Source: Aureimonas altamirensis
GTDB taxonomy: Bacteria; Pseudomonadota; Alphaproteobacteria; Rhizobiales; Rhizobiaceae
Length of the DNA stretch: 64,000 nt
Direction of reading: 5' to 3'
NCBI RefSeq assembly: GCF_023702225.1
Contig: NZ_JAMQCO010000002.1
Location: forward strand, 248,001-312,000
Position 1 is the stretch's first letter. Every line of letters starts with the position of its first letter. The position numbers and the translations under genes are program-made. Positions 10,578 through 26,364 of the stretch are shown here, piece after piece. Below the pieces are notes generated by a model. The model saw nothing but the letters and a program-made list of their open reading frames with translations. It was not told the origin of the DNA and ran no database searches.

Positions 10578-10613
10578 AATCGCAATTAATCGCTTTTTTT
10601 GGCTAATCGCCAA
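10578..10613. promoter_or_regulatory. Probable LysR-type operator between racemase and aminotransferase genes
   Basis: A perfect interrupted palindrome TTGGC-N5-GCCAA lies at 10599-10613, matching the T-N11-A form typical of LysR-type sites. Three copies of AATCGC lie at 10578, 10588 and 10605, the last inside the palindrome. The site is 46 bases before the aminotransferase start in a divergent spacer, and a LysR-family gene ends this module at 12591. The link to that regulator is inference. Confidence 0.5.
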
Positions 10614-10658
10614 TTTTACGATCCTTCGCACATTTGGATAAGCGCCAGGATTCCATCA

Positions 10659-11885
10659 ATGGTACTCACAATCGCAGATCGTGCTGCCCGTCTGAAACCT
10701 TCGGCGAGCATCGCAGCGAAAGCGATGGTTGCTAAACTGCAGGCCGATGGTCACGCCATCATCGACCTGACCATCGGCGAGCCCGACCTGCCCACTCCCG
10801 ATCACATCATCGATGCGGCCCTTGCCGCCATGAAGGCCGGCGACACCCATTACACGGCCTCGGCAGGCACGCCGGCGCTTCGTCGCGCCGTGGCCAATCT
10901 CTACGCCACGCAGCGCGGCATCCCCTGCAGCGCATCCAACGTCGCGGTCGGCTGCGGCGCGAAGCAGCTGATCTTCGAGGCGTTCGCTGCAACCCTGAAC
11001 GCCGGGGACGAGATCATCGTGCCTGCACCCTACTGGGTTTCCTACCCGGACCTCGCGCGGCTCCACGATGGGGTGCCGGTCGTCGTCGGGTGCGATGCTG
11101 ACGTTTCCTTCAAGCTGACGCCCCAGGCGCTGGAAGCGGCGATCACGCCGCGCACCCGCTGGCTCGTCCTGAACTCGCCCAACAACCCCTCGGGCGCGGT
11201 CTATACGCAGGGCGAGCTTTCCGCCATCGCCGAGATATTGCGCCGGAACGAGCATGTGTGGGTGATGACCGACGAGATCTACGAGCATCTCTGTTACGAT
11301 GCCGCCCGGGCGCCGGGCCTGATCGAGGTGGCGCCCGACCTGTTCGCCCGCAGCCTCATCATCAACGGCGTTTCCAAGGCGTATGCCATGACGGGTTGGC
11401 GTGTCGGCTATGCAGTCGGCCCGCAGGCTCTGGTGGACGTGATGGTCAAGATGCTGAGCCAAAGCACCACCTGCGCAAGTTCCGTCAGCCAGGCTGCCGC
11501 CGTGGCGGCACTCGAGGGGGACCAGGCCTGCGTCGGCGAAGCATGCAACGTGTACCGCCTCCGGCGGGACCGCATGACGCAAATTCTTTCGGATGCGCCG
11601 GGCCTTCGCTTTTCCATCCCGCGCGGGGCCTTCTATCTTTATGTGTCCGTCGCCGACCTGATTGGCAGGACGACGCCGGCCGGAAAGACGCTCGAAAGCG
11701 ATGTCGACGTGTCGCTGTACCTGCTGGAACACGCCAAGGTTGCGGTCCTGGACGGATCGGCCTACGGCCTTTCCCCGTATCTGCGCCTGTCCTTCGCGGC
11801 CTCCATGGAGGCAGTGGAAGCCGGGTCGCACGCCATCGTCGCCGCCTGCCATGCCCTTGCGCCGCGCACGGCGGTTCATTCCTAG
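10659..11885 (+). CDS. Pyridoxal-phosphate aminotransferase, class I (AspC/AATase type)
   Basis: 408-residue class I/II aminotransferase. Family landmarks are LTIGEPDLPTPDHI near residue 35, HYTASAGTPALRRAV, NSPNNPSGAVY, and the PLP-lysine region INGVSKAYAMTGWRVGY. It resembles the aspartate/aromatic aminotransferases of rhizobia, but the amino donor cannot be fixed. ATG at 10659 with AGGA upstream fits the conserved start MVLTIADRAARLKPSA. It is followed 13 bases later by an RraA-like aldolase gene with a strong Shine-Dalgarno sequence, and then by a LysR regulator. The likely role is converting an amino acid to a 2-oxo acid that the aldolase cleaves. Confidence 0.9.
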   Translation: MVLTIADRAARLKPSASIAAKAMVAKLQADGHAIIDLTIGEPDLPTPDHIIDAALAAMKAGDTHYTASAGTPALRRAVANLYATQRGIPCSASNVAVGCGAKQLIFEAFAATLNAGDEIIVPAPYWVSYPDLARLHDGVPVVVGCDADVSFKLTPQALEAAITPRTRWLVLNSPNNPSGAVYTQGELSAIAEILRRNEHVWVMTDEIYEHLCYDAARAPGLIEVAPDLFARSLIINGVSKAYAMTGWRVGYAVGPQALVDVMVKMLSQSTTCASSVSQAAAVAALEGDQACVGEACNVYRLRRDRMTQILSDAPGLRFSIPRGAFYLYVSVADLIGRTTPAGKTLESDVDVSLYLLEHAKVAVLDGSAYGLSPYLRLSFAASMEAVEAGSHAIVAACHALAPRTAVHS

Positions 11886-13493: not shown

Positions 13494-14725
13494 GCCATGG
13501 AGAAGCGCGAACGAGGCACGACGCGGTCGGAAAAATCTTCCTGGAGGGAGTTGACGCCCATCATCCCCATGTTCCGGGCAATCTCGGCCTTCAGAAGGCC
13601 GATGGCATAAGAAACCCCCTCTTCTCCGCCTACGGCGCACGCATACAGAAGCGGTCGACCGACAAATACGAAGGTTGCACCTAAGGCCAAGGCCTTCAGG
13701 ACGTCCGTCCCGCGACGAACGCCGCCGTCCAGCATGACCGGCATCGAACCACCGACAGCGGCAACGATGGTGGGCAGGACACGCAAGGGGGAAAGAGTTC
13801 CATCCAGTTGCCGTCCGCCATGGTTCGACACGATGACGGCGTCGACGCCGCGCTCCCGTGCGATGACCGCGTCCTCTGCCGACATAAGGCCCTTTATCAC
13901 GAGATGCCCCTTCCAGCGCTTCCGGATGATGTCGAGGTGCGCCCAGTTCAAATGATCCTTGGCTCTGAAATCCCGCTCGACGCTTTGCGAAAGGATCGGG
14001 GCGCCGCGATGTGCGAAGGAGTTCTCGAAATACGGCATGCCGTGCCGCGCGAATGTCCGCAGGAACGTCCCGCAGGTCCAGCGCGGGCGCAGCATACCAT
14101 CCAGGAGAAGACGCAGGCTGGGGCGCAGCGGCGTGGAGAAGCCGTTACGTACGTTGTTCTCGCGGTTTGCCCTCACAGGTGTATCGACAGTAATCACGAG
14201 AGTGCCGAACCCGGCGCGTTCGACCCGGTCGACCAGTCCAATGATCCGCTCGGCATCCCCCGGCAGATAAGCCTGGAACCAGGCGTCCGGGTTGGCGCTT
14301 CGAACCTCCTCGAGCGGAATGAGCGACGAACCGCTCATGATCATCGGAATTCGTTCGGCCGCCGCGCTTCGCGCCAGCACGAGATCGCCGCGATAGGCGA
14401 CCAGGGCGCTGATGCCCATGGGCGCGATGCCGAACGGAGCGGCATACTCCCGCCCCAGCAGGCGGGCCGTCATCGTCCGTTTCGAGACATCGATCAACGA
14501 GCGTGGGACGAAGCCGAGCTCAGCGAAGGCGGCCCGATTGTCGGCGAGCGAGCTATTGGTTTCGGCCGCACCCGAGACGTAGCCGAAGATCGGACGAGGC
14601 AGGTGCCGTCGACCCAGTTGCTCGAAATCGTCGAGGCACAGCGCATGTCGAAACCTGCCCTGCTTGCGCCGGGGCATTCGACCGGATCTTTCCCCCACGG
14701 ACGCGTCGGCGTTTGCACTGTTCAT
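13490..14725 (-). CDS. FMN-dependent alpha-hydroxy-acid dehydrogenase, LldD-like
   Basis: 411-residue flavoenzyme of the L-lactate dehydrogenase/glycolate oxidase family, which oxidises L-2-hydroxy acids to 2-oxo acids. It shows YVSGAAETNSSLADN near the N terminus, APMGISALVAYRGDL, VITVDTPVRANREN, the catalytic histidine in VIVSNHGGRQLDGT, and the FMN-phosphate sequence VMLDGGVRRGTDVLKALALGA. ATG at 14725 is 11 bases after the IclR stop; the reading frame stays open upstream but inside iclR. Its place downstream of tctCBA and iclR suggests it oxidises the imported hydroxy acid. The exact substrate is unknown. Confidence 0.88.
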   Translation of the reverse strand: MNSANADASVGERSGRMPRRKQGRFRHALCLDDFEQLGRRHLPRPIFGYVSGAAETNSSLADNRAAFAELGFVPRSLIDVSKRTMTARLLGREYAAPFGIAPMGISALVAYRGDLVLARSAAAERIPMIMSGSSLIPLEEVRSANPDAWFQAYLPGDAERIIGLVDRVERAGFGTLVITVDTPVRANRENNVRNGFSTPLRPSLRLLLDGMLRPRWTCGTFLRTFARHGMPYFENSFAHRGAPILSQSVERDFRAKDHLNWAHLDIIRKRWKGHLVIKGLMSAEDAVIARERGVDAVIVSNHGGRQLDGTLSPLRVLPTIVAAVGGSMPVMLDGGVRRGTDVLKALALGATFVFVGRPLLYACAVGGEEGVSYAIGLLKAEIARNMGMMGVNSLQEDFSDRVVPRSRFSMA

Positions 14726-14736
14726 CGCTGGCTTTC

Positions 14737-15474
14737 TTAATCGAAGGTCGCAGGTCCGCGGGCGCCGCTGAGGCGTTCGTTCAGTTCCGATGCCGCCCGC
14801 CGCAAGGGTTCGAGGTAGGATGCGATTATCTCGTCGGTGAAGCGGTTTGTCGGCCCCGAGATCGCCAGCGTGCCGATCAGCTTGTTCTCGACGTTGAAGA
14901 TGGGGCAGGCCATGCTCGCGACCTGCGGATCTCGTTCGCCGCGCGTTACATGATAATGCCGCTGACGGATCGTTTCGTAGGGCTCGCCCGGCTGACCGGC
15001 AAAGGCAAGCATGACGCGCCCGGGCGCCCCCTGATCGAGGGGAAACGAACTTCCGGGACGCGTGACATGGGAGATCGACTGAGAGGACTGGGCTCGAAAA
15101 AGACAGACGCGACGATCCCCCTCGCGCACATAGAAGGTCGCACTCTCCCCGGTGACCCGGCGCAATTCCTGTAATGTCGGGAGGATGTATTCCTCCAGCT
15201 TGAAACCCGACGTGTAGATGCCCCCGAGCTTCCCTATCTTCGAGCCGAGACGCCAGGTGGAATCGGCGTTGCGCACGAGGAAGCCGGACTGCGCCATGGT
15301 TTTTGCCAGACGAAGCGTCGTCGGCTTCGACAGGCCCACGCGACGGGACAGCTCGGTCAGCGAAATGGATTGGTCTCCCGTCGAGAAGGCGTCGAGGATC
15401 GACAGCGCCCTCTCGACGGCGGCGACCGTTCCGCTCTTTGCGGAAGTTTCGTTTTGGGTCCGGTCCATCGGCAT
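14737..15474 (-). CDS. IclR family transcriptional regulator
   Basis: 245 residues with an N-terminal winged helix (VERALSILDAFSTGDQSISLTELSRRVGLSKPTTLRLAKTM, about 18-58) and a C-terminal IclR effector domain (about 80-240), including the family sequence FNVENKLIGTLAISGP. Regulators of this family usually bind palindromes built on GAAA/TTTC; such sites lie between tctC and the divergent dehydrogenase gene at 18571-18596. It sits in line with tctCBA upstream and the LldD-like gene downstream, so it is likely the local regulator. Confidence 0.9.
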   Translation of the reverse strand: MPMDRTQNETSAKSGTVAAVERALSILDAFSTGDQSISLTELSRRVGLSKPTTLRLAKTMAQSGFLVRNADSTWRLGSKIGKLGGIYTSGFKLEEYILPTLQELRRVTGESATFYVREGDRRVCLFRAQSSQSISHVTRPGSSFPLDQGAPGRVMLAFAGQPGEPYETIRQRHYHVTRGERDPQVASMACPIFNVENKLIGTLAISGPTNRFTDEIIASYLEPLRRAASELNERLSGARGPATFD

Positions 15475-15570
15475 CCAGGCGTTCGCTCCACTGCGTCTGA
15501 TTTCGCACCGCTCCTAGTATCAACGCGGCGATGCTATTGGGAGAGATATCCGAAAGCGCAGGGTGAGGCC

Positions 15571-17082
15571 TCACTCCTCCTGCGCGCCTTCGAACGCACG
15601 CTCGCGCTTGCGCCGGAACGACGGTACGACCATCAGGGCAAGCAGGAGCGCGGTCGCAAGCAGAAGCGCGGCACTGATGGGGCGTTGCACGAAGATCGAG
15701 AAGTCGCCCTGGGTGATCATCAACGTCCGCCGCAGATTGGTTTCGAGCAGCGGTCCGAGGACGAATCCCAGCAACAAGGGGCCACATTCGCATTTGGCCT
15801 TGCGAAAGAGATATCCGAGCAGGCCGAAGAGAACGGCTAGCGCCACGTCGAAGGGACGATTGTTCACGCTGTAGATTCCGATACAGCAAAACAGGAGGAT
15901 TGCCGGGAACATCAGGCGATACGGGGTGCGCAGCAGGCGAACCCAGATGCCGATCAGCGGAAGGTTGATGACGACCAGCATGAGATTGCCGATCCACATG
16001 CTGGCGACCAGCCCCCAGAATATCACCGGCTGCGTCTGGAAGACCGTCGGTCCGGGCGTGATGCCATGGATGACGAACGCGCCGAGCATCATCGCCATCA
16101 TGTTGTTGGAGGGAATGCCCAGCGTCAGAAGCGGGATGAACGAGGACTGGGAGGCGGCGTTGTTTGCGGCTTCCGGAGCTGCAACCCCTTCGACAGCCCC
16201 TTTACCGAACGCCTCCGGGCGTGACGAGACCCGCTTTTCGAAGGAGTAGGCGGCAAAGGAAGACAGCGTCGCCCCGCCGCCGGGAAGGATCCCCAGGAAC
16301 GTCCCGAGCCCGGTGCCACGCAACGTGGCGCCCCAACTGCGCCTGAAATCGTCGCGGCTCGGCCAGAGGCGGCTTACCTTCTGGGACAGGAGGCTGCGAT
16401 CCTCCGGCTTCTCCAGGTTCTCGGCAATCTCCGCAATGCCGAAAAGGCCGATGGCGATCACGACGAACTCGATGCCGTCAAACAGGCTGACGGCGCCGAA
16501 GGTCAAACGCTGTGCGCCGCTGCTGACGTCGGTTCCGACCATACCGAGCACGAGCCCGATGCCGATGACGCCGACGGCCTTGAGCGGAGATCCCTGCGCC
16601 AGGATCGCGGCCGCGAGCAAGCCGAAAAGCATCAGGGACACATATTCGGCAGGGCCGAAGGACAGAGCGAACTCCGACAGGGTCGGTCCCGCTATCGCAA
16701 TGAAGGCGGTGGCGACCGTACCGGCGAAGAAGGACGCCAGGGCCGCCACGGCCAGAGCGGCTCCGGCGCGCCCCTGGCGCGCCATGACGTAACCGTCCAG
16801 GGCCGTGACGACCGACGAGGCCTCGCCGGGCAGGTTCACCAGGATGGCAGTCGTCGATCCGCCGTACTGCGCGCCGTAATAGATGCCGGCGAGCATGATC
16901 AAGGCTGCCAGCGGCGGCAGGTAGAAGGTGATTGGCAGCAGGATCGCGATGGTCGTGGTTGGCCCAAGGCCCGGCAGGACCCCGATCAACGTGCCGAGGA
17001 GAACCCCGATCAGGCAGAAGGCCAGGTTGGTGGGAGACAGGGCTGCGCCGAAGCCCATCATGAGAGGGTCGAAGATTTCCAT
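15571..17082 (-). CDS. tctA: Tripartite tricarboxylate transporter, large membrane subunit TctA
   Basis: 503-residue protein with about a dozen hydrophobic segments. Typical TctA sequences are GVLPGLGPTTTIAILLP (about 38-54), the paired sequence GILPGGGATLSSFAAY in the second half, and AANNAASQSSFIPLLTLGIPSNN. It forms the cation-coupled channel of a TTT importer. It follows tctB by 12 bases. A 12-bp palindrome GTGAGGCCTCAC covers its stop codon. Substrates of TTT systems include citrate and other di- and tricarboxylates as well as aromatic acids. Confidence 0.95.
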   Translation of the reverse strand: MEIFDPLMMGFGAALSPTNLAFCLIGVLLGTLIGVLPGLGPTTTIAILLPITFYLPPLAALIMLAGIYYGAQYGGSTTAILVNLPGEASSVVTALDGYVMARQGRAGAALAVAALASFFAGTVATAFIAIAGPTLSEFALSFGPAEYVSLMLFGLLAAAILAQGSPLKAVGVIGIGLVLGMVGTDVSSGAQRLTFGAVSLFDGIEFVVIAIGLFGIAEIAENLEKPEDRSLLSQKVSRLWPSRDDFRRSWGATLRGTGLGTFLGILPGGGATLSSFAAYSFEKRVSSRPEAFGKGAVEGVAAPEAANNAASQSSFIPLLTLGIPSNNMMAMMLGAFVIHGITPGPTVFQTQPVIFWGLVASMWIGNLMLVVINLPLIGIWVRLLRTPYRLMFPAILLFCCIGIYSVNNRPFDVALAVLFGLLGYLFRKAKCECGPLLLGFVLGPLLETNLRRTLMITQGDFSIFVQRPISAALLLATALLLALMVVPSFRRKRERAFEGAQEE

Positions 17083-17094
17083 TTGCGCGATACC

Positions 17095-17556
17095 CTATTG
17101 TGGCCACAGGGGCATCTGGACACCCAGGCCGAAGACGAAGACCACCGTGGTGAAGATCGTCAGCCCTATTGCGAGGCATGCCATCTCCAGCGGCCGCCAA
17201 CTTCGGTCCGCAAGGCTTCCGATCACGACGACCCACAAGGCCCCGATCACGAAGCCCAGATACTGTGCGGCGATAGCGTAGCCGCCGATCGCGACGAGAA
17301 GGATGACGATCGGCCGCAAGGCGATCGTGCCGATGTCCGCAGGTTCTCCGCGAACCGAGAGCGCCAGGACGAACAGGCCGACCAGGACCACGAAGCCGGA
17401 GATCATGTTCGGCAGGAAGCCGGAGCCCATCGCGGCCAGGGTGCCCATTTCCAGGTCGCGGCCCGCCAGAAGGCCGATCGCGCCGAGGACGATGAACAGG
17501 AGACCGGCGAGAAGGTCGGGGGCGTTGGCGCCCCGCTGCCTGGCCCCTCCCCGCAT
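17095..17556 (-). CDS. tctB: Tripartite tricarboxylate transporter, small membrane subunit TctB
   Basis: 153 residues with four hydrophobic segments, the usual layout of the small TctB subunit. Overall sequence conservation in this family is low, so the call rests on topology, length and its place between tctC and tctA. The ATG at 17556 overlaps the tctC stop by one base (TGATG), implying coupled translation. Confidence 0.87.
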   Translation of the reverse strand: MRGGARQRGANAPDLLAGLLFIVLGAIGLLAGRDLEMGTLAAMGSGFLPNMISGFVVLVGLFVLALSVRGEPADIGTIALRPIVILLVAIGGYAIAAQYLGFVIGALWVVVIGSLADRSWRPLEMACLAIGLTIFTTVVFVFGLGVQMPLWPQ

Positions 17557-18518
17557 CAGTTTCCGGCCTCGGTGAGAGCCCAGATAGCCTTCAGGCGTTC
17601 CGTCTTCTCCGGCAGTTGCGCTTTCCATTCGTCGCCCGGCAAGTAGCTGATCGGCAGTGAAAGTGCCTGAGCGGTCTTCTGGAACTCCGGATCGTCGAGC
17701 GCCTTGCGGACGGCTTCGGCGAAGTGTTCGCGGATATCTGCCGGGGTGCCGTGGGTGATCGCAAAGCCGCGTTCGGAGCCGCCTTGCAGGGCATAGCCGA
17801 GTTCGGCGGCCGTCGGCACATCCGGAAGCGAGGCGGCACGCTCGTCGGCAAGCTGGACCAGAGGACGGATCCGCTCGTTTTCGCCGGAAAGATACTCGCC
17901 CATGTTCAGGCCCATCGACTGGATATGGCCGCCGAGGAGCGCCGTCTTCGCCTCACTCGCCCCGTTGAAGGGAATGTTGGTCATGTCGACATCGGCTTCT
18001 CGTTCGATCTGCAGCATCGCGAGATGCTCGTCTCCGCCGACGCCCGTCCCGCCCAAGGTCAGCGCTCCGGGATTTTCCTTCGCGTAGGCGATGAGATCTT
18101 CGAATGTCTCGAATGGAGAATCCCGGCTGACGACGATCAACGTCGGATCGGCGACGATGCGCGTGACAGGCTCGACGTTCGCCGGATCGAAACCGATCTT
18201 CCGGCTGAGCTGCATGGTGATGAACCCAGGCAGGTTGAAGGACGAGACGGTGTATCCGTCCGGCTGGGCCTGCGCGAGCGCAGTGTAGGTGATTTCGCCG
18301 CTGGCGCCGGGCCTGTTCTGAATGACGATGCGGGAGCCCGGCAGGTTCTTCTCGATGTACGGCGCGAGGGTGCGGATCATGACGTCGGTCCCGCCGCCTG
18401 GCGCAAAACCGACGATGACTTCGATCGGCTTGTCGTTCGGCCATTCGGCCCATGCGGCCTGAGACAAAACCGCGACCGTCGAAACGGTGGCGGCGAAAAA
18501 TGCTGCAGCTTTCGTCAT
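17556..18518 (-). CDS. tctC: Tripartite tricarboxylate transporter, periplasmic binding protein TctC
   Basis: 320 residues. A cleavable signal peptide ends near residue 24 (LSQAAWA then EW). The mature protein starts with the Bug/TctC sequence PIEVIVGFAPGGGTDVMIRTLAPY, followed by VIQNRPGASGEI and GTGVGGDEHLAMLQIE. It should capture a carboxylate in the periplasm and deliver it to TctAB. GGAGGA lies seven bases upstream of the ATG. It is divergent from a 2-hydroxyacid dehydrogenase gene across a 149-base spacer with IclR-like palindromes. Confidence 0.95.
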   Translation of the reverse strand: MTKAAAFFAATVSTVAVLSQAAWAEWPNDKPIEVIVGFAPGGGTDVMIRTLAPYIEKNLPGSRIVIQNRPGASGEITYTALAQAQPDGYTVSSFNLPGFITMQLSRKIGFDPANVEPVTRIVADPTLIVVSRDSPFETFEDLIAYAKENPGALTLGGTGVGGDEHLAMLQIEREADVDMTNIPFNGASEAKTALLGGHIQSMGLNMGEYLSGENERIRPLVQLADERAASLPDVPTAAELGYALQGGSERGFAITHGTPADIREHFAEAVRKALDDPEFQKTAQALSLPISYLPGDEWKAQLPEKTERLKAIWALTEAGN

Positions 18519-18553
18519 GGCCAAATCCTCCCTAGCCCTTCGCGATATCCATT

Positions 18554-18596
18554 CTGGCGACCCTCCACTTGTTTCGCCAGATGAAACTATATTTCA
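18554..18596. promoter_or_regulatory. Overlapping palindromes between tctC and the dehydrogenase gene, probable IclR-type operator
   Basis: Three inverted repeats are nested here: CTGGCGA-N13-TCGCCAG at 18554-18580, GTTTC-N7-GAAAC at 18571-18587, and TGAAA-N5-TTTCA at 18582-18596. The last two resemble sites of IclR-family regulators of the KdgR type, which recognise GAAAC/GTTTC half-sites. An IclR gene is in the same locus. The sites are between two divergent genes, as expected for shared control. The regulator assignment is inference. Confidence 0.5.
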
Positions 18597-18667
18597 CTGT
18601 ACAATACATGCTGACTGTGGTGATGTCAAAGGGTGCGCTGGGGGGATTCCGGCGCGATGGGAGAACG

Positions 18668-19696
18668 ATGATGACGATGCAGCATGAATTGTCGGTGCTG
18701 ATCACCGGCGGCGCGATCGCGCCGGAAGCGACGGCATTGCTGGAGGAGCGACGATGCAAGACGCATTACGTCGACTTTTACGCGTCTTCGGAGGAATTGG
18801 CGGATGTCGCTTCCCGCTATCGCGTGGATGCCATCCTCGTGCGCAGCGGCACCGTATCCAGCAAGGTGATCGACGCCTCCGACAGGCTGAGGGTCATCGC
18901 CAAGCACGGATCGGGGGTCGACAACATCGACCTTGCCGCCGCATCACGTCGTGGCGTGCCCGTCCTGCGGGCGGTGGCCGCAAACGCGCGCGCCGTCGCG
19001 GAGCATGCGTTCGCGTTGATGGGATGCCTGTTGAAGGATATTCCAACCCTCGATCGGCAGGTTCGCGGCGGGGTCTGGCCGAAGGCGACTTTTCGGGGGA
19101 ACGACATCGCCGGTTCGGTTCTGGGCATCATCGGGTACGGGCAGATCGGCCGCCATATGGAACAGATGGCGACTTCATTCGGCATGCAGGTCCTGGTGTA
19201 CGATCCGCTGGCGCCGCGGGAGTTCGAGCGAGCAGGCGTCCGGCGTGTTGACGATCTCGACGAGCTGTTGCAGGCCAGCGACGCCGTCAGCCTCCATTGT
19301 CCGCTCACCGATACGACACGGCACCTCATCAACCGGGATCGGCTCGCCCGGATGAAATCCTCGGCGATCCTTATCAATACGGCCCGCGGCGGCCTCGTCG
19401 ACGAAGTAGCCCTATGCCAGGCCTTACTCGGTGGCGTGATCGCCGGTGCCGGCCTGGACAGTTTCGAGCAGGAGCCTCCGAGGCCGGACAATCCCCTGTG
19501 GGCGCTGCCCAACGTCGTGGTGACACCGCATGTCGGCGGCGTCACCCGCGGCGCGCTGCGTCAAATGGGGCTCCAGGCGGTCCGCCATATCCTGCATGTT
19601 TCGGATGGCCATGCGCCGGATCCTGAATGCGTCGCCAACCCGCGATATGCCGATGCCGCAATGGCGGCCACTGCTAACGAACCCAGGGATGCCTGA
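18668..19696 (+). CDS. D-2-hydroxyacid dehydrogenase, SerA-like
   Basis: 342-residue NAD-dependent enzyme of the D-isomer 2-hydroxyacid dehydrogenase family. The Rossmann motif is GIIGYGQIGRHM. The catalytic Arg is in NTARGGLVDE, the Glu in LDSFEQEPP, and the His in VVTPHVGGVT. It has no C-terminal ACT domain, so it is a catabolic or broad-specificity member rather than a regulated serine-pathway enzyme. ATG at 18668 or 18671 follows GGGAGA. It runs directly into an RraA-like aldolase gene and is divergent from tctCBA, so it probably oxidises an imported hydroxy acid before cleavage. Confidence 0.87.
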   Translation: MMTMQHELSVLITGGAIAPEATALLEERRCKTHYVDFYASSEELADVASRYRVDAILVRSGTVSSKVIDASDRLRVIAKHGSGVDNIDLAAASRRGVPVLRAVAANARAVAEHAFALMGCLLKDIPTLDRQVRGGVWPKATFRGNDIAGSVLGIIGYGQIGRHMEQMATSFGMQVLVYDPLAPREFERAGVRRVDDLDELLQASDAVSLHCPLTDTTRHLINRDRLARMKSSAILINTARGGLVDEVALCQALLGGVIAGAGLDSFEQEPPRPDNPLWALPNVVVTPHVGGVTRGALRQMGLQAVRHILHVSDGHAPDPECVANPRYADAAMAATANEPRDA

Positions 19697-19697
19697 C

Positions 19698-20369
19698 ATG
19701 ACCGAGCTTGGATTTCGTATCGAACCCAATGCGCCGCTGATCGATCCGGAGCTGATCGCTGCCTTCGAAAGCGTCGTCACACCGCACATAAGCGACAGCA
19801 TCAATCGGCTGGCGGGCGGCTATAATCTACGTCCCGTCAACATGCGTGGAAAGCTGGTCGGAACGGCGCTGACCGTACGCGCGCGTGCCGGCGACAATCT
19901 GATGATGCATAAGGCGATAGAGATGGCGGAGGCCGGACACGTCATCGTCGTGGACGGAGGCGGCGACCTCTCGCGTGCGCTGACAGGCGAACTGATGGCA
20001 CGCTCATCCATTCGCAAGGGAATCCGCGGCTTCGTTCTGGACGGTGCCGTACGGGACGTGGGTTTCTTCCGCGATGGGGACTTCCCCTGTTACGCCCGCG
20101 GCGTCACGCATCGCGGCCCGTTCAAGGAGGGTCCGGGCGAGATCAACGTTCCCGTGTCGATCGACGGCATGGTTGTCAGTCCGGGAGATCTCATCGTCGG
20201 CGACGAGGATGGCATCGTCGCCATTCCTGCATGCGAAGCGCAAGCCGTTCTTGAACTCAGCCGGGCGAAGGCAGCCGCCGAGGCTGCAATCATCAAGGCG
20301 ATAGAAAGCGGGTCGATGAAGCGCGGCTGGATCGACGAGACAATTGCCAGAAAGAAGGCGGTGGCCTGA
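19698..20369 (+). CDS. RraA/HMG-aldolase-like protein (second copy)
   Basis: 223 residues, clearly paralogous to the protein at 11899. Shared landmarks are RARAGDNLMMHKA, VIVVDGGGDLSRALTGE, FVLDGAVRD with the aldolase Arg-Asp pair, HRGPFKEGPGEINVPVSI and VGDEDGIVAIP. ATG at 19698 has AGGG nine bases upstream; an ATG at 19689 would overlap the dehydrogenase stop. It pairs with the SerA-like dehydrogenase instead of an aminotransferase, so the two copies may serve two entry routes to similar 4-hydroxy-2-oxo acids. It is convergent with pxpA. Confidence 0.87.
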   Translation: MTELGFRIEPNAPLIDPELIAAFESVVTPHISDSINRLAGGYNLRPVNMRGKLVGTALTVRARAGDNLMMHKAIEMAEAGHVIVVDGGGDLSRALTGELMARSSIRKGIRGFVLDGAVRDVGFFRDGDFPCYARGVTHRGPFKEGPGEINVPVSIDGMVVSPGDLIVGDEDGIVAIPACEAQAVLELSRAKAAAEAAIIKAIESGSMKRGWIDETIARKKAVA

Positions 20370-20385: not shown

Positions 20386-21159
20386 CTAACACCCGGACTC
20401 AAGTTGCGACATCGGGGTAATGTCCGCGCCGGCCTCCATCACGGCGGCGCGGATCGTGTTGCCGAGTTCGACCGCTCCCGGCGTGTCGCTATGCAGAAGA
20501 ATGGATTGAGCCTGCATGGGGATCGTGCCGCCCTCTATGGTCTCCACGACGCCTTCACGCAGAAGCCTGACGATCCGCGCACGGATCGACGCCGGATCCT
20601 TCACCATGGCCCCCGCCTTCCCGCGCGAAACGAGCAGCCCCCGCTCGTCATAGGCGCGGTCCGCCAGGAAAGACCGTACGACGCGCAGACCGAGCGACTG
20701 CGCGATCGTCTCCGCCTTCGTGCCGGGCAGCGCCACATAGGTCAGGTCGCGGTCGAAGGCATGAAGCGCCCTCAGCAACACCTCCGCCACATCCGCATCC
20801 ACGAAGGACAGGTTGCCGAGTGCGCCGTGAAAATTCGCATGGGAAAGCCTGGTCCCCGCCGCCTCGGTAATCGCTCGCATGGCGCCGAGTTGATACAGCA
20901 CCATGGTGCGCAGTTCGTCGCTGTCCATCGCGAACGGCTTGCGGCCGAATCCCTGCCGGTCCGGATAGCCGACATGGGCGCCGACATCGACGCCATGGCG
21001 TGCCGCAAGGCGCACGGTGCGGTCCATGATGACGGGGTCGCCAGCGTGGAACCCGCACGCGATATTGGCGGAGGAAACGAGCGGTATGATCGCGGCATCG
21101 TCGGCCGCGGCATAGATACCGAAGCCTTCGCCAAGGTCGGAATTGATATCGATCTTCAT
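20386..21159 (-). CDS. pxpA: LamB/YcsF family protein, 5-oxoprolinase subunit A (PxpA)
   Basis: 257 residues starting MKIDINSDLGEGFG, the hallmark of the LamB/YcsF family, with ANIACGFHAGDP, GAHVGYPDRQGFGR and the C-terminal sequence ILLHSDTPGAVELG. With PxpB and PxpC this protein forms the bacterial ATP-dependent 5-oxoprolinase that opens pyroglutamate to glutamate. It is the last gene of a seven-gene overlapping operon that also encodes biotin carboxylase and carrier proteins, so a related lactam or amide may be the true substrate. The ATG overlaps the upstream stop by one base. Confidence 0.88.
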   Translation of the reverse strand: MKIDINSDLGEGFGIYAAADDAAIIPLVSSANIACGFHAGDPVIMDRTVRLAARHGVDVGAHVGYPDRQGFGRKPFAMDSDELRTMVLYQLGAMRAITEAAGTRLSHANFHGALGNLSFVDADVAEVLLRALHAFDRDLTYVALPGTKAETIAQSLGLRVVRSFLADRAYDERGLLVSRGKAGAMVKDPASIRARIVRLLREGVVETIEGGTIPMQAQSILLHSDTPGAVELGNTIRAAVMEAGADITPMSQLESGC

Positions 21160-21611
21160 CACATCGCCTTCTTGCCTGGACGAAAGCCGAGGACAGGATC
21201 GCCGAAACCGATGATCCGCCCGGCCTCCACCATTCTGGAGGTCACCGTTCCGTCGCCGGGCGCGCGGATGGCGCGCAAGGCAGGGCCGATTTTCACGAAG
21301 GCCAGGACATCGCCCGCCGCCACCGGACGGCCGGCCTCGCAGGCCCCGTCCGGCGCGTCGACGACGACGCCGAAGCACGGCGCCGTCAGGGTCGTCTCGG
21401 TCACCGGGTCCGCTTCGACCGGCTCTTTCCCGGCGCGGCCGGAGCCCAGGAGCTTTGGCCTGGACTTCAACTTGAGTCGCAGCCGGCTCTGCCCATTCTC
21501 CCATTCGAGGCGCGTCACACCATGGGCAAGCGCGAAGCGCGCGAGATCGCAGATTTGCGCCGCGTCCAGAAGTGCGGGACCATCGTCTTGCGTATCGGAC
21601 AGGTCGGTCAT
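21159..21611 (-). CDS. Biotin-carrier-like protein lacking the biotinylation motif
   Basis: 150 residues. The C-terminal half (about 70-145) aligns with the biotinyl domain of the AccB encoded at 24605 without gaps from GDVLAF to GDGTV. At the biotin site the canonical EAMKM of AccB is replaced by KIGPA, so the modified lysine falls on a proline. A glycine-rich turn and the second hydrophobic repeat are retained. It cannot carry biotin by the usual route and may be structural, or a carrier subunit of the PxpB/PxpC complex. It lies between pxpC and pxpA with four- and one-base overlaps. Confidence 0.8.
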   Translation of the reverse strand: MTDLSDTQDDGPALLDAAQICDLARFALAHGVTRLEWENGQSRLRLKLKSRPKLLGSGRAGKEPVEADPVTETTLTAPCFGVVVDAPDGACEAGRPVAAGDVLAFVKIGPALRAIRAPGDGTVTSRMVEAGRIIGFGDPVLGFRPGKKAM

Positions 21612-22594
21612 GACGCGAGAGCCCCCAGAACATCATCCAGCCGCTCGAACAGCGATCCCATCGCGCTCTCCCTTGCCCGAAGCCGGTCCACGGCATGCGC
21701 GGCCGTAATACGCCGAAACCTGACCCGGTCCCCCAGCCGCGCCTGGCCGAGGCGCCAAAGGTCGGCCGTGGCCACGACGCCGATCTTGGGATAGCCGCCG
21801 CACGTATTGGCATCGCTGAGTTGCACGACAGGCTGGCCGGACGGCGGAACCTGGATCGTGCCCGGCAAGATCCCATGCGAGCGTAGTTCCAGCCGGTGCT
21901 TCAGCGCCAGTTGCGGGCCGGTCAGGCGGTAGCCGATCCGGTTGCTGTCCGGATGGATCTTCCATTCGGTGCCAGCAAAGGTTTCGATGGCCTCGTCCGT
22001 GAATGCGTCGTATTCCGCCGCCGGAACGTAATCCACCACGATCGCTTCACCTGCGCCCGCAGCGCCCTCGTGGAGCAAGCCGAGTTCGCCCGGGTCCAGG
22101 CCATAGTCGGCAGGCATGCCGGAGGACGGCGCACCGACGAGGTCCAACCGGTCGCCGCTGCGCAAGGCCCGCCCGTCCAGCCCCCCGAAACCGCCCTTCA
22201 GGTCGGTGCTGGCAGAGCCGAGAACGGACGCTACCGAAAGGCCGCCCTCGACGGTCAGGTAGGCGCGCATTCCATGCGCCGCTGCGCCGGCTTTCAGACG
22301 TTGGCCGGCGCGCGCCGCCATGCACCAGAACGGCGGCATCGGCACGCCATCCAGCCGGGCGGCGCAATCGGCCCCCGTCAGCGCAAACCGCGTATCCCGA
22401 TGGAACAGGATTTCGAAGGCGCCGATGGTGAACTCGATGCCGGCTGCATCCTCTGCGTTGCCGAGCATGCGATTGCCGATCCGCAGAGCAATCGAGTCCA
22501 TCGCGCCGCACGGCCCGACACCCACGGCGGAGAACCCCGTGCGACCTGCGTCCTGAATGGTGGCCAGAGGCCCGGGGGCGACGATCTCGATCAC
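21608..22594 (-). CDS. pxpC: Biotin-dependent carboxyltransferase-family protein, 5-oxoprolinase subunit C (PxpC/KipA)
   Basis: 328 residues of the CT_A_B (AHS2) family. It begins [19 protein letters not shown] and has VGPCGAMDSIALRIGNRMLGN, ALTGADCAARLDG and the C-terminal sequence SDANTCGGYPKIGVV. The family is homologous to one part of the carboxyltransferase domain of urea carboxylase. GTG at 22594 overlaps the pxpB stop by four bases. The open frame extends farther upstream but only inside pxpB. It should pair with PxpB. Confidence 0.9.
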   Translation of the reverse strand: MIEIVAPGPLATIQDAGRTGFSAVGVGPCGAMDSIALRIGNRMLGNAEDAAGIEFTIGAFEILFHRDTRFALTGADCAARLDGVPMPPFWCMAARAGQRLKAGAAAHGMRAYLTVEGGLSVASVLGSASTDLKGGFGGLDGRALRSGDRLDLVGAPSSGMPADYGLDPGELGLLHEGAAGAGEAIVVDYVPAAEYDAFTDEAIETFAGTEWKIHPDSNRIGYRLTGPQLALKHRLELRSHGILPGTIQVPPSGQPVVQLSDANTCGGYPKIGVVATADLWRLGQARLGDRVRFRRITAAHAVDRLRARESAMGSLFERLDDVLGALAS

Positions 22595-23256
22595 AGGTTC
22601 AGGCTTTCGATCTGGAAGCGGATTGTGTCTCCGGGCGCCAGAAGCGCGGGTCGTTCGGCGACAGGGTCGAAGAACGAGACGTCTGTCCGGCCGATGATGT
22701 GCCATCCGGACGGCGAGCGGCGCGAGATGACGCCCGCCTGGGCCCCGCCGATCACCACGCAGCCGGCATCCACGCTGACACGCGGCACGGCGCGCCGTGG
22801 CACGGCAAGAGCCGGGTCCAGTCCCGCGAGATAGCCGAATCCGGGCTGGCTGCCGATCGCGAAGACCGTGTACCTGCCCCCGGCATGGCGCTCGACATAG
22901 TCGCGCGGCGACAGGCCGGCCACTGCCGCGACTTCGGAAAGATCCTCGCCATCCGCGCCGCCATAGCGGACCGGGATGTCGATCAGCCTTCCGCTGCCCT
23001 GCCGCCGTTCCGCACGCTGCCACATCATGCCGATCTCGGCCATGGCAGCCTCGCCCGCGATGACCAGCGGATCGAAACGCACGAGAAGGTTGTTCATTCC
23101 CGGAACGATGTCCAGGTAGTTCGTCGTCCCGGCCAGACGATCCGCGAGCGCCCAGAATCGTTCCTGGCGCGCAAGATCCAGCCCATCGGCATCCGTATCG
23201 CACAGGATGGCGCCCTCGCCCATCCAGCTCATTCGCAAGGGCAGATCATCCGCCAT
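22591..23256 (-). CDS. pxpB: 5-oxoprolinase subunit B (PxpB/KipI), CT_C_D family
   Basis: 221 residues. The family signature is seen in [51 protein letters not shown] and [12 protein letters not shown]. This AHS1 family is homologous to the other part of the urea carboxylase carboxyltransferase domain, and with PxpC and PxpA forms 5-oxoprolinase. ATG at 23256 has AAGGCGG upstream and lies 11 bases inside the accC gene, so translation is likely coupled to the biotin carboxylase. Confidence 0.9.
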
Positions 23257-24598
23257 GACGCCGCCTTTCCAGCCAATGCTCCAGATAATGGATGCCGACG
23301 CCGCCCTCGGCAAACCCGTCATCGGCCATGATCTCGCGGTGCAGTGGCAGGTTGACCGCAATGCCGTCGACGACGGCCTCGTCCAATGCCGCGCGCATCC
23401 GGGCGATGGCTTCCTGGCGGCTGCTGCCGCTGGCGATGATCTTGCCGATCATCGAATCGTAGTTCGGCGGCACCACATAGCCGCTTTCCACATGGGTATC
23501 GACACGGATGCCGGGCCCACCGGGAACATGCCATCTTTCGATCCGGCCAGGGCCGGGCACGAAGGTGAAGCCGTCCTCCGCGTTGATCCTGCACTCGATG
23601 GCATGGCCGACGGGCCGGACATCCCCCTGCGCGAACGAAAGCCGCTCCCCGCCGGCGATCCGCAGCTGCCACGCCACGATATCGATGCCCGTGACGCATT
23701 CCGTTACCGGATGCTCGACCTGCACCCGCGTGTTCATTTCGATGAAGTAGAAACGCCCGTCCTCGTACAGGAATTCGAAGGTGCCGGCGCCGCGATAGGC
23801 CATGGCGCGGCAGGCAGCGGCACATCGCTCGCCGATATCGGCAACCAGCGCGCGGTCGATGCCCGGCGCCGGGGCTTCCTCGACCACTTTCTGGTGCCGC
23901 CGCTGCAAGGAGCAGTCGCGGTCGCCCAGCCACACGGCATTGCCATGCTCGTCGGCCAGAACCTGGATTTCGACGTGACGCGGCGCCTGCAGGAACTTCT
24001 CCAGATACACGGCGGGGTTGCCGAAGGCGCGGGCGGCTTCCTCTCGCGTCGTCGCCAGCGCCTCGGACATGTCCGCCGGCGCGCGCACCACCCGCATACC
24101 GCGGCCGCCGCCCCCGCCCGCAGCCTTCAGGATGACCGGGTAGCCGACGGCCTCGGCCAGCCGCAGCGCTTGCGCCTCGTCGTCGATCGCACCCTCGCCG
24201 CCGGGTACGCACGGCACCCCCGCGGCCTTCATCGCCGCCTTCGCGGCGATCTTGTCGCCCATCGTCCGTATGGCGTCGCCGGACGGGCCGACGAAGACCA
24301 GGCCGGCCTCTTCCACCGCGTCGGCGAAAGACGCGTTCTCCGACAAAAAGCCATAGCCCGGATGGATGGCGTCGGCCTCCATCAGCCGCGCCGCCTCGAC
24401 GATACGGCGGGCGTGAAGGTAGCTTTCCGACGCCTGCGCCGGGCCGATGCACAGGGCGTGATCGGCGGTCCGGACATAGGGGGCCGCACGGTCGGCCTGC
24501 GAATGGATCTGCACGCTTTCGATGCCGAGCAAGCGGCAGGCCCGCTGTATGCGAAGGGCGATTTCGCCGCGATTTGCGATCAGTACCCGCTTCAGCAT
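23246..24598 (-). CDS. accC: Biotin carboxylase (AccC type)
   Basis: 450-residue ATP-grasp enzyme that carboxylates biotin on a carrier protein. It has the N-terminal [37 protein letters not shown], the ATP-lid [12 protein letters not shown], the active-site region [16 protein letters not shown], and a C-terminal AccC domain. ATG at 24598 is chosen because AGGGCG lies nine bases upstream; an ATG at 24604 follows the accB stop directly. In this operon it is likely to work with the AccB encoded next to it and with PxpB/PxpC, and to be separate from the housekeeping acetyl-CoA carboxylase. Confidence 0.92.
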
Positions 24599-24604
24599 GG
24601 CCAT

Positions 24605-25030
24605 CTACGCCCTGTCGGGCGCCAGGGTGAACAGGACGTCGCCGGCCTCGACCCCCGCACCATTGTCCGCCAAGCGGGCGGCAACGATGCCCGCGACAGT
24701 CGCCTTGACCGGCGTCAGCATCTTCATCGCCTCGACCAGTCCGACCGTATCGCCGACCGCGACCGTGCCGCCGACATCGACGAAAGGCGCCTTGCCCGGA
24801 CTTTCCGCGCTGTAGAAGGTACCCGACAGCGGCGCCTCGATCGTCGTTTCGCCGGCGGCGGGCGGCGCGGCCACGGGCCCGTCCGCCTTGCTGCCTCCTG
24901 CATCCGGAAGCGGCGTCGCCGCCGCTCCCCGGACAATCCGCAAACGCATCGCGCCTTCACGAAAATCGACGGCCTCCACCCCCGACTCCGCCATCGAGCG
25001 GATGAGAGCCTTGATCTCCGCGAGCGTCAT
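24605..25030 (-). CDS. accB: Biotin carboxyl carrier protein (AccB type)
   Basis: 141 residues: an N-terminal helix region (MTLAEIKALIRSMAESGVEAV), an Ala/Pro-rich linker (about 35-60) and a biotinyl domain with the canonical VEAMKM site, lysine near residue 107. It carries the carboxyl group from the adjacent AccC. It overlaps the MFS transporter gene by four bases (ATGA) and ends directly before accC. Belonging to a lactam or amide-carboxylase-like operon is more likely than a role in fatty-acid synthesis, given the neighbours. Confidence 0.9.
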   Translation of the reverse strand: MTLAEIKALIRSMAESGVEAVDFREGAMRLRIVRGAAATPLPDAGGSKADGPVAAPPAAGETTIEAPLSGTFYSAESPGKAPFVDVGGTVAVGDTVGLVEAMKMLTPVKATVAGIVAARLADNGAGVEAGDVLFTLAPDRA

Positions 25031-26364
25031 GCCGCCTCTTCCACGATTTCGGCTTCGATGGCTTCGAGGCTGCGACGGCTCGTCTCGACGGCCAGGAGGG
25101 CGATGGTGATGGCCTGCACGATCAGCAGGACAGAGACGGCGCCGACGACGGCGATGATACCGCCCCCATGCATCAGATAGACCGATACGAAGGGGATGCC
25201 GATGGATGCGAGGCGACCCGTCGTGACGGCCCAGCTCGTAAGCCGCATGCGCACCTCGGTGGGGAACAGTTCGGGCAGGTAGCCCGCCTGGATGACCGAT
25301 ACGAGGAAGTAGATCAGGCTGAACATCACGAAGCCGAGGCCGGTAGCCACCGCCTGGCTTTCCACCAGCGCGAAGCACGGACCCACGATCGCCGCGAGGA
25401 TCGACCCGCCGATGATCGCCGGCTTGCGGCCGATCCTGTCGGTCAGCAGGAAGGCGACGATGGCGCCGGCCGGGCCGCCAAGGGTCATCAGCACCGCCTG
25501 CCCGAGCGACTGGTTGATGGGGATGCCCTGTTGGGCAAGGAAGGTCGGCAAAAGGGCGATGAAGCCGTAGATCGCGGCGCTCTGCACGATCTGCGTAACC
25601 GCGCCGATACCGAGCGACTTGCGGAACCGCGGATCGAGGGCGCGGACGTTGGGAACGGTGACCACGGGCGCCGCCTTCGGAGCCGGCAGCTCGGACGTGG
25701 CTTCCGCCTCGATGAAGGTGACGATCGTATCCGCCTCCCGGCCGCGACCGTTCTTTTCGAGCCACCGCGGCGATTCGGGGATGTTCTTGCGGGCGATGAA
25801 GACCAGAAGCCCGCCAAGGCCCGCGATGACGAACATTGCGCGCCAGCCGAGGATGGGGATGACGAACCAGCTCATCAGCGTTGCGGCGAACAGGCCGAAC
25901 TGCGCGATGCAGGACAGGAGCGCGGCCCACCGCCCCCGATGGCTCGGCGGAACGAACTCGCTGAGCAGGCCGTACCCGATCACGAGTTCCGCCCCAAGTC
26001 CGATGCCGGTCACGAAGCGGGCGACGATCAGCCACTCCATGTTGGGCATCACGGCGCAGGCCAGCGACGACAGGCCGAAGACGAGGAGGTTGAACTGATA
26101 GGTGAACTTGCGGCCGTATCGATCGCCGAGGAAGCCGGCGAGGATGGAGCCGATGAGCATGCCGAAGGCGGTCGCCGACAGGAAGGCGGCGTTCTTTTCG
26201 ACCGTCGACCAGTTCTCCTGCACCATGGCCGCAAGAACCGAATTCGCGAGGTAGATGTCGAACGCGTCGAAGAAAAGCCCGGCGCCGACCAGCACCAGGA
26301 TCTTCTTGTGGAACGGCAGGATCGGCAGCCTGTCGAGGCGGTCGGAAACGGAGGCTGTCGACAT
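25027..26364 (-). CDS. MFS transporter
   Basis: 445-residue major facilitator with twelve hydrophobic segments. The MFS loop motif is seen as GFLGDRYGRKFTYQF after segment 2 and LTDRIGRKPAI after segment 8, and ESPRWL occurs after segment 6. It resembles the metabolite:proton symporter and sugar-type branch. As the first gene of the overlapping accB-accC-pxpBC-pxpA operon it probably imports the compound that the enzymes process. The substrate is unknown. Confidence 0.9.
   Translation of the reverse strand: MSTASVSDRLDRLPILPFHKKILVLVGAGLFFDAFDIYLANSVLAAMVQENWSTVEKNAAFLSATAFGMLIGSILAGFLGDRYGRKFTYQFNLLVFGLSSLACAVMPNMEWLIVARFVTGIGLGAELVIGYGLLSEFVPPSHRGRWAALLSCIAQFGLFAATLMSWFVIPILGWRAMFVIAGLGGLLVFIARKNIPESPRWLEKNGRGREADTIVTFIEAEATSELPAPKAAPVVTVPNVRALDPRFRKSLGIGAVTQIVQSAAIYGFIALLPTFLAQQGIPINQSLGQAVLMTLGGPAGAIVAFLLTDRIGRKPAIIGGSILAAIVGPCFALVESQAVATGLGFVMFSLIYFLVSVIQAGYLPELFPTEVRMRLTSWAVTTGRLASIGIPFVSVYLMHGGGIIAVVGAVSVLLIVQAITIALLAVETSRRSLEAIEAEIVEEAA

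Follow-up and report, generated by a model that had tools for sequence, protein, structure and literature searches.

Introduction

The prokaryotic 5-oxoprolinase PxpABC, reportedly described by Niehaus et al. in 2017 and, in the case of Bacillus subtilis, reportedly reconstituted from three purified proteins, is encoded by adjacent genes of the PxpA, PxpB, and PxpC families. It has been described as an ATP-dependent 5-oxoprolinase (PMC13274462; here and below, papers are cited for the passages of them that were available). Urea carboxylase, a part of urea amidolyase, is built from biotin carboxylase (BC), biotin carboxyl carrier protein (BCCP), and carboxyltransferase (CT) modules, and its CT halves are homologous to PxpB and PxpC. 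Whether such CT halves, when separate, work with other biotin carboxylases was asked by Lombard and Moreira in 2011 (PMC3199775). Here we analyze an operon in a 64,000-nucleotide stretch of the Aureimonas altamirensis genome (NZ_JAMQCO010000002.1, positions 248,001 to 312,000; hereafter the window), in which pxpABC is accompanied by accB, accC, and the gene for a lysine-less carrier paralog. The operon probably, by a modest degree of confidence, encodes a split, biotin-dependent lactam-opening enzyme.

Several other systems resemble parts of this arrangement. In Pseudomonas aeruginosa, we take PA0492, PA0495, and PA0496 to be PxpA, PxpB, and PxpC. The PA0493–PA0496 operon includes the biotin-requiring PA0493, 40% identical to AccB, and the AccC homolog PA0494 (55%), and its precise function is given as unknown (PMC6249292, PMC5521831); its likeness to the window operon, AccB- and AccC-like genes in one operon, is drawn by description only. 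PDB entry 9yx5 holds the Mycobacterium smegmatis long-chain acyl-CoA carboxylase complex with the PxpBC homologs MSMEG_0435–MSMEG_0436 bound, and thus physically attached to a biotin-carboxylase complex, which has an AccA3-type alpha subunit in place of separate AccB and AccC. A literature search, with most subscription papers outside its coverage, found no paper on 9yx5 and no description of a biotin-dependent PxpABC. Plant BADC proteins, BCCP relatives without the biotinylation motif, aid BC–BCCP assembly (PMC11926652) and serve the plastid acetyl-CoA carboxylase. For caprolactamase, which is unrelated to PxpABC, a bicarbonate effect and carboxyphosphate-mediated lactam activation have been discussed (PMC8453981).

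A seven-gene operon with parts of two enzyme systems

Seven minus-strand genes run from position 26364 to 20386 in the order MFS, AccB, AccC, PxpB, PxpC, BCL, PxpA (Table 1), where BCL is the name used here for the lysine-less biotin-carrier paralog encoded by the sixth gene. Profile scores for the individual families confirm the seven-gene operon placed here by the initial annotation. From MFS to PxpA the junctions are a 4-bp overlap, abutting ends, an 11-bp overlap, and three further 4-bp overlaps, and this spacing of 0–11 bp fits coupled translation.

The genes for PxpA, PxpB, and PxpC stand together as in 5-oxoprolinase, and every module of a urea-carboxylase-type enzyme (BC, biotinyl carrier, CT_A_B, and CT_C_D) is present on a separate chain, matching the AccC, AccB, PxpC, and PxpB families, as had been proposed from the sequence. 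The operon combines parts of both systems and fails a tested feature of each. Compared with PxpABC, a biotin carboxylase, a biotin carrier, and a lysine-less carrier are added in the same operon, and the window PxpC falls below the cut-off of the strict NCBIfam equivalog PxpC_5OPro (300.3 versus 500 bits) and carries Asn at a marker position where most PxpC without accBC have Gln (see below). Compared with urea carboxylase, the chains are separate, PxpA is encoded in the operon, and an Arg replaces the general-base Lys.

The operon AccB retains the biotinyl lysine when aligned to Escherichia coli BCCP (4hr7_B) and scores below the strict BCCP equivalog (86.5 versus a cut-off of 115.2). AccC aligns over its full length with solved AccC structures (2c00, E 2.4e-187) and contains the stretch ECRINAED, which we take to hold catalytic residues. 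The PxpC motif reads QLSDANTCGGYP, and an AlphaFold2 model of the protein (predicted local distance difference test score, pLDDT, 93.4) has YbgK (5dud_A) as its top fold match, with template modeling (TM) scores of 0.86/0.93.

In the whole genome (4.33 Mb, 98.66% complete) there is one CT_A_B match and one LamB_YcsF match, so that pxpABC is single. The accBC genes are not: the initial annotation would have had to be abandoned if this were the only such pair, and a second one lies at C12:409195 (accB) and C12:409769 (accC), which is probably the fatty-acid pair. We also considered the operon AccC as a recent copy of the other AccC of the genome and rejected this, as the two are placed apart in the AccC tree.

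AccC is repeatedly associated with PxpC

The association was surveyed in three collections. Seventy-two named loci, a biased set, were collected from genome contigs with the window PxpC as query. A sample across the phylum comprised 396 genomes, at least 208 of which had CT_A_B among the matches listed, and leans to high scores; 74 stretches were taken from it, eight of them aimed at urea carboxylases and a few overlapping. The least biased collection is a sample of the order, in which 62 of 120 genomes gave a total of 79 matches and 60 of the 79 stretches were taken. Together with the window, these yielded 206 distinct PxpC-type sequences. Two loci are left out of the 206 and are counted among the 122 "others" in the neighbor and BCL counts below: L096 (from genome G055), an exact duplicate within the Mesorhizobium locus L073 (281 of 281 60-mers), and L152, an exact duplicate of part of L086.

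AccC was encoded within the stretch in 67 of the 72 named loci, in 25 of 66 loci from L082 to L147, and in 25 of the 60 order-sample stretches (L156–L215). Ten genomes held 2–9 AccC matches each, weak ones counted, and by our estimate AccC would be expected by chance in about 1–3% of 17-kb stretches; the order-sample linkage therefore exceeds chance. By neighborhood, 108 of the 206 PxpC are unfused with AccC nearby, 80 are unfused without AccC, eight are fused PxpB–PxpC accompanied by fused AccC–BCCP, two are fused without AccC, and eight were called urea carboxylase. One of the last, L014, was called wrongly: its AccC and PxpC matches share one stop-to-stop frame and its PxpB is split across frames, and the locus (L014:5658-8981) is an accC–pxpB–pxpC stretch with disrupted frames.

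A first PxpC alignment was loose, with out-of-gene ends from stop-to-stop frames, and was redone trimmed to 288 columns, which left the main groups unchanged. AccC-linked PxpC occur in at least four clades: clade I, which contains the window (n = 79), a small group with L086 and L117, clade III, with eight fused members, and clade IV. The enclosing group of 93 sequences around clade I has a support of 0.998. The urea carboxylases form a group with L145, L169, and L207 that is in turn allied to clade IV; the window clade lies elsewhere in the tree. In clade III, fused AccC–BCCP and fused PxpB–PxpC lie next to PxpA in eight loci (L135, L136, L141, L185, L192, L194, L200, and L205), a set that, judged by its domains, is a urea-carboxylase-like enzyme in two pieces.

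Mapped on the PxpC tree by parsimony, with the urea carboxylases and L173 coded as linked, linkage required 12 state changes, compared with a mean of 63.4 in 200 shuffles; linkage thus appears to be inherited and to change rarely. In a tree of 146 AccC sequences, the AccC of clade I, of clade III, of clade IV, and of L086/L145/L197 occupy separate positions, with those of clade I adjoining AccC from Vibrio, Marinomonas, and genomes of other classes. Taken together, the PxpC and AccC trees suggest that PxpABC and a biotin carboxylase came together on at least four occasions. The initial annotation had called for a survey of accBC with pxpBC; co-occurrence proves widespread and, by both trees, arose several times. 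Of the motif patterns applied to the encoded proteins, all four AccC patterns were passed by 61 of 68 clade-I AccC and were too strict for clade IV, on whose activity they are uninformative; a PxpA pattern was dropped, having no match in 58 of 77 clade-I sequences.

A conserved carrier paralog without the biotinyl lysine

The sixth gene, described initially as biotin-carrier-like and left open, encodes a conserved carrier paralog lacking the lysine. A profile built from 43 BCL homologs aligns along the full length of E. coli BCCP (E 1e-21), taking in both the N-terminal region and the biotinyl domain, and places VGPL opposite the AMKM of BCCP. BCL shares with BADC both this full-length relationship to BCCP and the lack of the biotinylation site. 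Its AlphaFold2 model (pLDDT 86.3, predicted TM score 0.55) retrieves chains of biotin-dependent carboxylases and biotinyl domains as top Foldseek matches (best E 1.1e-5, query TM 0.44). The lysine is retained in 111 of 187 carrier-like sequences; at the same column, 75 carry a different residue and one is gapped.

BCL is present in 73 of the 79 clade-I loci; in the 122 other loci (36 of clade IV and 86 more) none was found except in L096, the duplicate of L073. At L122, L130, and L179, BCL is found next to PxpABC, with neither AccB nor AccC encoded locally. Strong AccC matches in the L122 and L130 genomes consist of a single AccC-sized frame per genome plus frames of urea-carboxylase size. BCL may therefore recruit the general enzyme in such cases. 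By analogy with BADC, we propose that BCL could serve as an assembly subunit or scaffold of AccB–AccC–PxpBC, which, if the lactam-opening reading of the operon is true, would make it a bacterial counterpart of the plant proteins.

A PxpC marker residue

Only one column of the trimmed PxpC alignment separates the chosen groups; in the window it holds the Asn at position three of DA-N-TCGGYP. Under the same rule, no column of PxpB or PxpA separated them. The residue is Asn in clade I (76 of 79 sequences), Val in clade IV, Pro in clade III and urea carboxylase, and Gln in three unlinked groups. Outside clade I, the linked sequences (n = 39) have Val in 34, Pro in three, and Gln in two, and all eight fused-linked PxpC have Pro, while the unlinked sequences (n = 71) have Gln in 60, Gly in five, Pro in three, Val in two, and Ala in one. 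As an outside check, the mycobacterial PxpC of 9yx5 has Pro and E. coli YbgK has Gln.

Gene neighborhood and a possible substrate

The genes around the operon are given in Table 1. The RraA-family protein retains the equivalents of R123, D124, and E199 in an alignment to 3noj, residues with roles in HMG/CHA aldolase (PMC5065237). A script scoring motif spacing in 32 RraA frames found Glu at the expected spacing in 22 and another residue in two, and made no call in eight. In the related operon of L010, a neighboring aminotransferase has the same best NCBIfam model as that of the window (557.7 bits), and an MFS homolog heads the operon there and in L011 and L012.

Table 1. Operon genes and neighboring features in the window, with profile scores in bits and cut-offs where given
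Feature	Positions	Strand	Evidence
MFS (major facilitator superfamily) transporter, aromatic-acid/H+ symporter-like, first gene of operon	25027..26364	-	MFS_1 135.1; TIGR00895 180.4, under cut-off 418.55
AccB-type biotin carboxyl carrier protein with LVEAMKM	24605..25030	-	Biotin_lipoyl 51.7 (cut-off 22.1)
AccC-type biotin carboxylase	23246..24604	-	NF006367 705.7 (cut-off 597); TIGR00514 664 (626.5)
PxpB, carboxyltransferase subdomains C and D	22591..23256	-	TIGR00370 183.1 (cut-off 145.55); CT_C_D 210.9; YbgJ 5dud_B E 1.8e-49
PxpC, carboxyltransferase subdomains A and B, GTG start	21608..22594	-	CT_A_B 306.1; TIGR00724 313.3 (230.2)
BCL, AccB paralog without biotinyl lysine (EAMKM -> KIGPA)	21159..21611	-	Biotin_lipoyl 20.2 versus 22.1 (marginal); HlyD_3 25.5 versus 22.2
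PxpA (LamB/YcsF), putative lactam-opening subunit, GTG start or ATG one codon on	20386..21162	-	LamB_YcsF 294.6; NF003814 321.7 (226); 1v6t E 8e-66
RraA-family protein related to HMG/CHA aldolase	19530..20369	+	NF004850 292.4 ("hypothetical protein")
D-2-hydroxyacid dehydrogenase, phosphoglycerate dehydrogenase (PGDH)/glyoxylate-reductase like	18569..19696	+	2-Hacid_dh_C 221.7
Tripartite tricarboxylate transporter genes	15571..18524	-	TctA 15571-17082, 540.7; TctC 17556-18524, 147.2
Pyridoxal phosphate (PLP) aminotransferase, PRK06107 type (aspartate transaminase)	10599..11885	+	NF004769 545.6, under cut-off 617

Within the stretch, 30 of 79 clade-I loci have an RraA relative, compared with one of 122 others (the duplicate L096), and 27 of 79 have an aminotransferase, compared with three of 122; 25 loci have both. 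At a looser limit (E 1e-10) the counts are 31 of 79 versus three of 122 for RraA and 28 of 79 versus six of 122 for the aminotransferase. Two annotated plasmids, pCC283b_3 of R. leguminosarum and p53363 of B. guangxiense, carry the set at a single location, together with genes for a NAC regulator and an amino-acid ATP-binding cassette (ABC) transporter, and both encode the lysine-less carrier.

RraA-type pyruvate aldolases cleave 4-hydroxy-2-oxo acids, and transamination of 4-hydroxyglutamate yields one, which is why we propose its lactam as substrate. That the lactam is of the 4-hydroxy- or 4-hydroxy-4-methylglutamate type, and not 5-oxoproline itself, is a real possibility that nevertheless falls short of being probable. 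Plain 5-oxoproline may have another enzyme in this genome, in which a frame of 1236 aa combines HyuA and HyuB domains. In genome G308, a PxpABC of the E. coli type (L088) coexists with one from clade I that is accompanied by BCL, an RraA relative, and an aminotransferase (L122), which suggests different substrates for the two types.

Discussion

The favored interpretation of the operon, a biotin-dependent lactam-opening enzyme in separate chains, draws on what is observed of its genes, their order and conservation, the repeated association with AccC, the marker residue, the missing lysine, and the neighborhood; the chemistry, the role of BCL, and the substrate we infer. From family knowledge, AccC would carboxylate the biotin of AccB using ATP and bicarbonate. 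The PxpB–PxpC carboxyltransferase could then shift the carboxyl group to the nitrogen of a 5-oxoproline-type lactam, so that it is the lactam that would be carboxylated, and this would activate the ring carbonyl. PxpA, by comparison with PxpABC, may open the ring, after which the carbamate would shed CO2. Because CO2 is lost again, it would act as a catalyst, and the net reaction would be ATP-driven lactam hydrolysis. BCL, which could not be biotinylated at the usual site, may keep AccB, AccC, and PxpBC together, much as BADC does in acetyl-CoA carboxylase, and the freed amino acid might pass to the nearby aminotransferase and then to the RraA-type pyruvate aldolase.

A number of observations weigh against this interpretation or against steps in the argument for it. 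The marker follows clades and does not strictly track linkage: eight of nine unlinked clade-I loci also have Asn, and the ninth (L179) has Gln; among linked clade-I loci, L120 has Gln and one has Ala; Gln is likewise found in linked L086, L117, and B. guangxiense, and Pro in unlinked L102, L126, and L207. Nine clade-I loci were scored without AccC. Among loci so scored, L173 has an AccC about 13 kb away; none of AccC, BCCP, and BCL is encoded in the stretches examined for L015, L035, L040, and L068, and BCL is the only one of the three in L122, L130, and L179. Support for clade I is 0.137 in the trimmed tree, compared with 0.853 in the first, and the L117 AccC is a mere contig-end fragment and absent from the AccC tree. 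With respect to the neighborhood, the RraA relative scores under the cut-off of the CHA aldolase model NF006731 (140.9 versus 179 bits), the aminotransferase gene of the window is on the opposite strand, some 8.5 kb away from the operon, and the neighbor counts, for which clade-I proteins served as queries, are not independent, many loci being from Mesorhizobium and Gluconobacter. Relatives of HyuA/HyuB occur close to 21 of the 79 clade-I loci, many of which are from Acetobacteraceae, and are also found close to 14 of the 122 others.

The likely general base of urea carboxylase is K1605 of KlUA (PMC5770610). The window PxpB has Arg at the equivalent site, whose position was determined by manual counting along the alignment, and so do 158 of 201 PxpB outside urea carboxylase; the other 43 have Lys, as do all six urea carboxylases in the comparison and two clade-IV sequences inspected. 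The mechanism therefore cannot be a plain copy of that of urea carboxylase. Together with the placement of the window clade away from the urea-carboxylase clade, the missing lysine makes it less probable that the operon enzyme is a urea carboxylase, and leaves the probability that it works like one unchanged.

The same Arg bears on two other explanations. In one, PxpABC would be the canonical ATP-dependent 5-oxoprolinase that works without biotin, and AccB, AccC, and BCL would be accessory; they might, for example, act as sensors of bicarbonate or of acetyl-CoA carboxylase status, or regulate PxpBC by attaching to it. PxpABC is known in that capacity (PMC13274462), the same PxpC motif occurs in clade-I loci without local accBC, and the window PxpB has the Arg found in most sequences. 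The initial annotation had PxpBC working with a biotin carboxylase, and this gains backing from the homologs bound in 9yx5; that structure is evidence of binding, not of function, and fits a regulatory attachment as well. The separate AccC associations, the fused forms, and the changes of the PxpC motif in linked clades, however, fit a catalytic partner better, and we consider the canonical explanation unlikely, if the most serious of the competing ones. In the other, the operon would encode a true carboxylase whose product is kept, acting on a urea-, guanidine-, or amide-type compound or performing a new CO2-fixing step, with PxpA acting on the product or separately. PxpBC is homologous to the CT domain of urea carboxylase, clade IV groups with that enzyme, and the clade-IV PxpB inspected have the general-base Lys. 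In the window, by contrast, this site is Arg, and the neighbors identified belong to amino-acid catabolism, no search having been made for allophanate hydrolase genes. We regard a product-retaining carboxylase as rather improbable. Of the substrate classes named initially (a lactam, an amide, or a urea-like compound), the urea/guanidine option is accordingly weakened by the Arg and by a neighborhood resembling amino-acid catabolism, while a lactam is the one retained here.

That accBC are simply a second half of acetyl-CoA carboxylase, placed in the operon by chance or co-regulation, is the least credible explanation and highly improbable. AccC does score over the accC equivalog cut-off, and public annotation of such accC reads "fatty acid biosynthetic process": in L257 (NZ_CP121638.1) and L258 (NZ_CP022220.1) the operon accC is filed under fatty acid biosynthesis, and PxpC is called a "biotin-dependent carboxyltransferase family protein". 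Against this stand the linkage in 25 of 60 order-sample stretches and in many gene orders, the second accBC pair of the genome, and the fact that none of the seven genes encodes a CT subunit of acetyl-CoA carboxylase, the genome not having been searched for accA/accD.

A lactam-opening enzyme that depends on biotin would link two enzyme families usually held apart and would extend biotin-dependent carboxylation, beyond the making of C–C or C–N bonds, to the breaking of amide bonds. Many accC copies annotated as fatty-acid synthesis would need re-reading, and the result would bear on the 2011 question about separate urea-carboxylase CT halves and other biotin carboxylases (PMC3199775). The marker residue and the operon gene set make the idea directly testable. 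In a wider and more speculative version, which we think doubtful, "CO2-catalysed" amide-opening enzymes would form a class that arose repeatedly by the pairing of PxpABC with a biotin carboxylase, and urea carboxylase would be an offshoot of it. Biotin-borne CO2 would tag the lactam transiently and a metal hydrolase would then open it. The marker would tell the donor, carboxybiotin (Asn, Val, Pro) or, in the canonical enzyme with Gln, in-place carboxyphosphate/phosphate, and the branch of the window would have added a dead biotin carrier as scaffold and would serve the catabolism of 4-hydroxyglutamate-type lactams by way of an aminotransferase and an aldol cleavage of the RraA type.

Further observations

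Genes of the HyuA/HyuB (hydantoinase/oxoprolinase) type lie near accBC–pxpABC in L017, L019, L021, L022, L024, L025, L028–L034, L036, L037, L051, L061–L063, L079, and L080. A proline-racemase family gene lies near the operon of L039 (L039:11211-12263), with relatives in L026, L049, L053, L056, and L077; its best NCBIfam match is trans-3-hydroxy-L-proline dehydratase, under the cut-off. Elsewhere in the window, an 835-aa frame occupies positions 13490-15997 on the minus strand, and its residues 456–826 match flavin mononucleotide (FMN)-dependent L-lactate dehydrogenases. An IclR-type regulator is encoded at 14737-15474, in another frame than this L-lactate dehydrogenase-like one.

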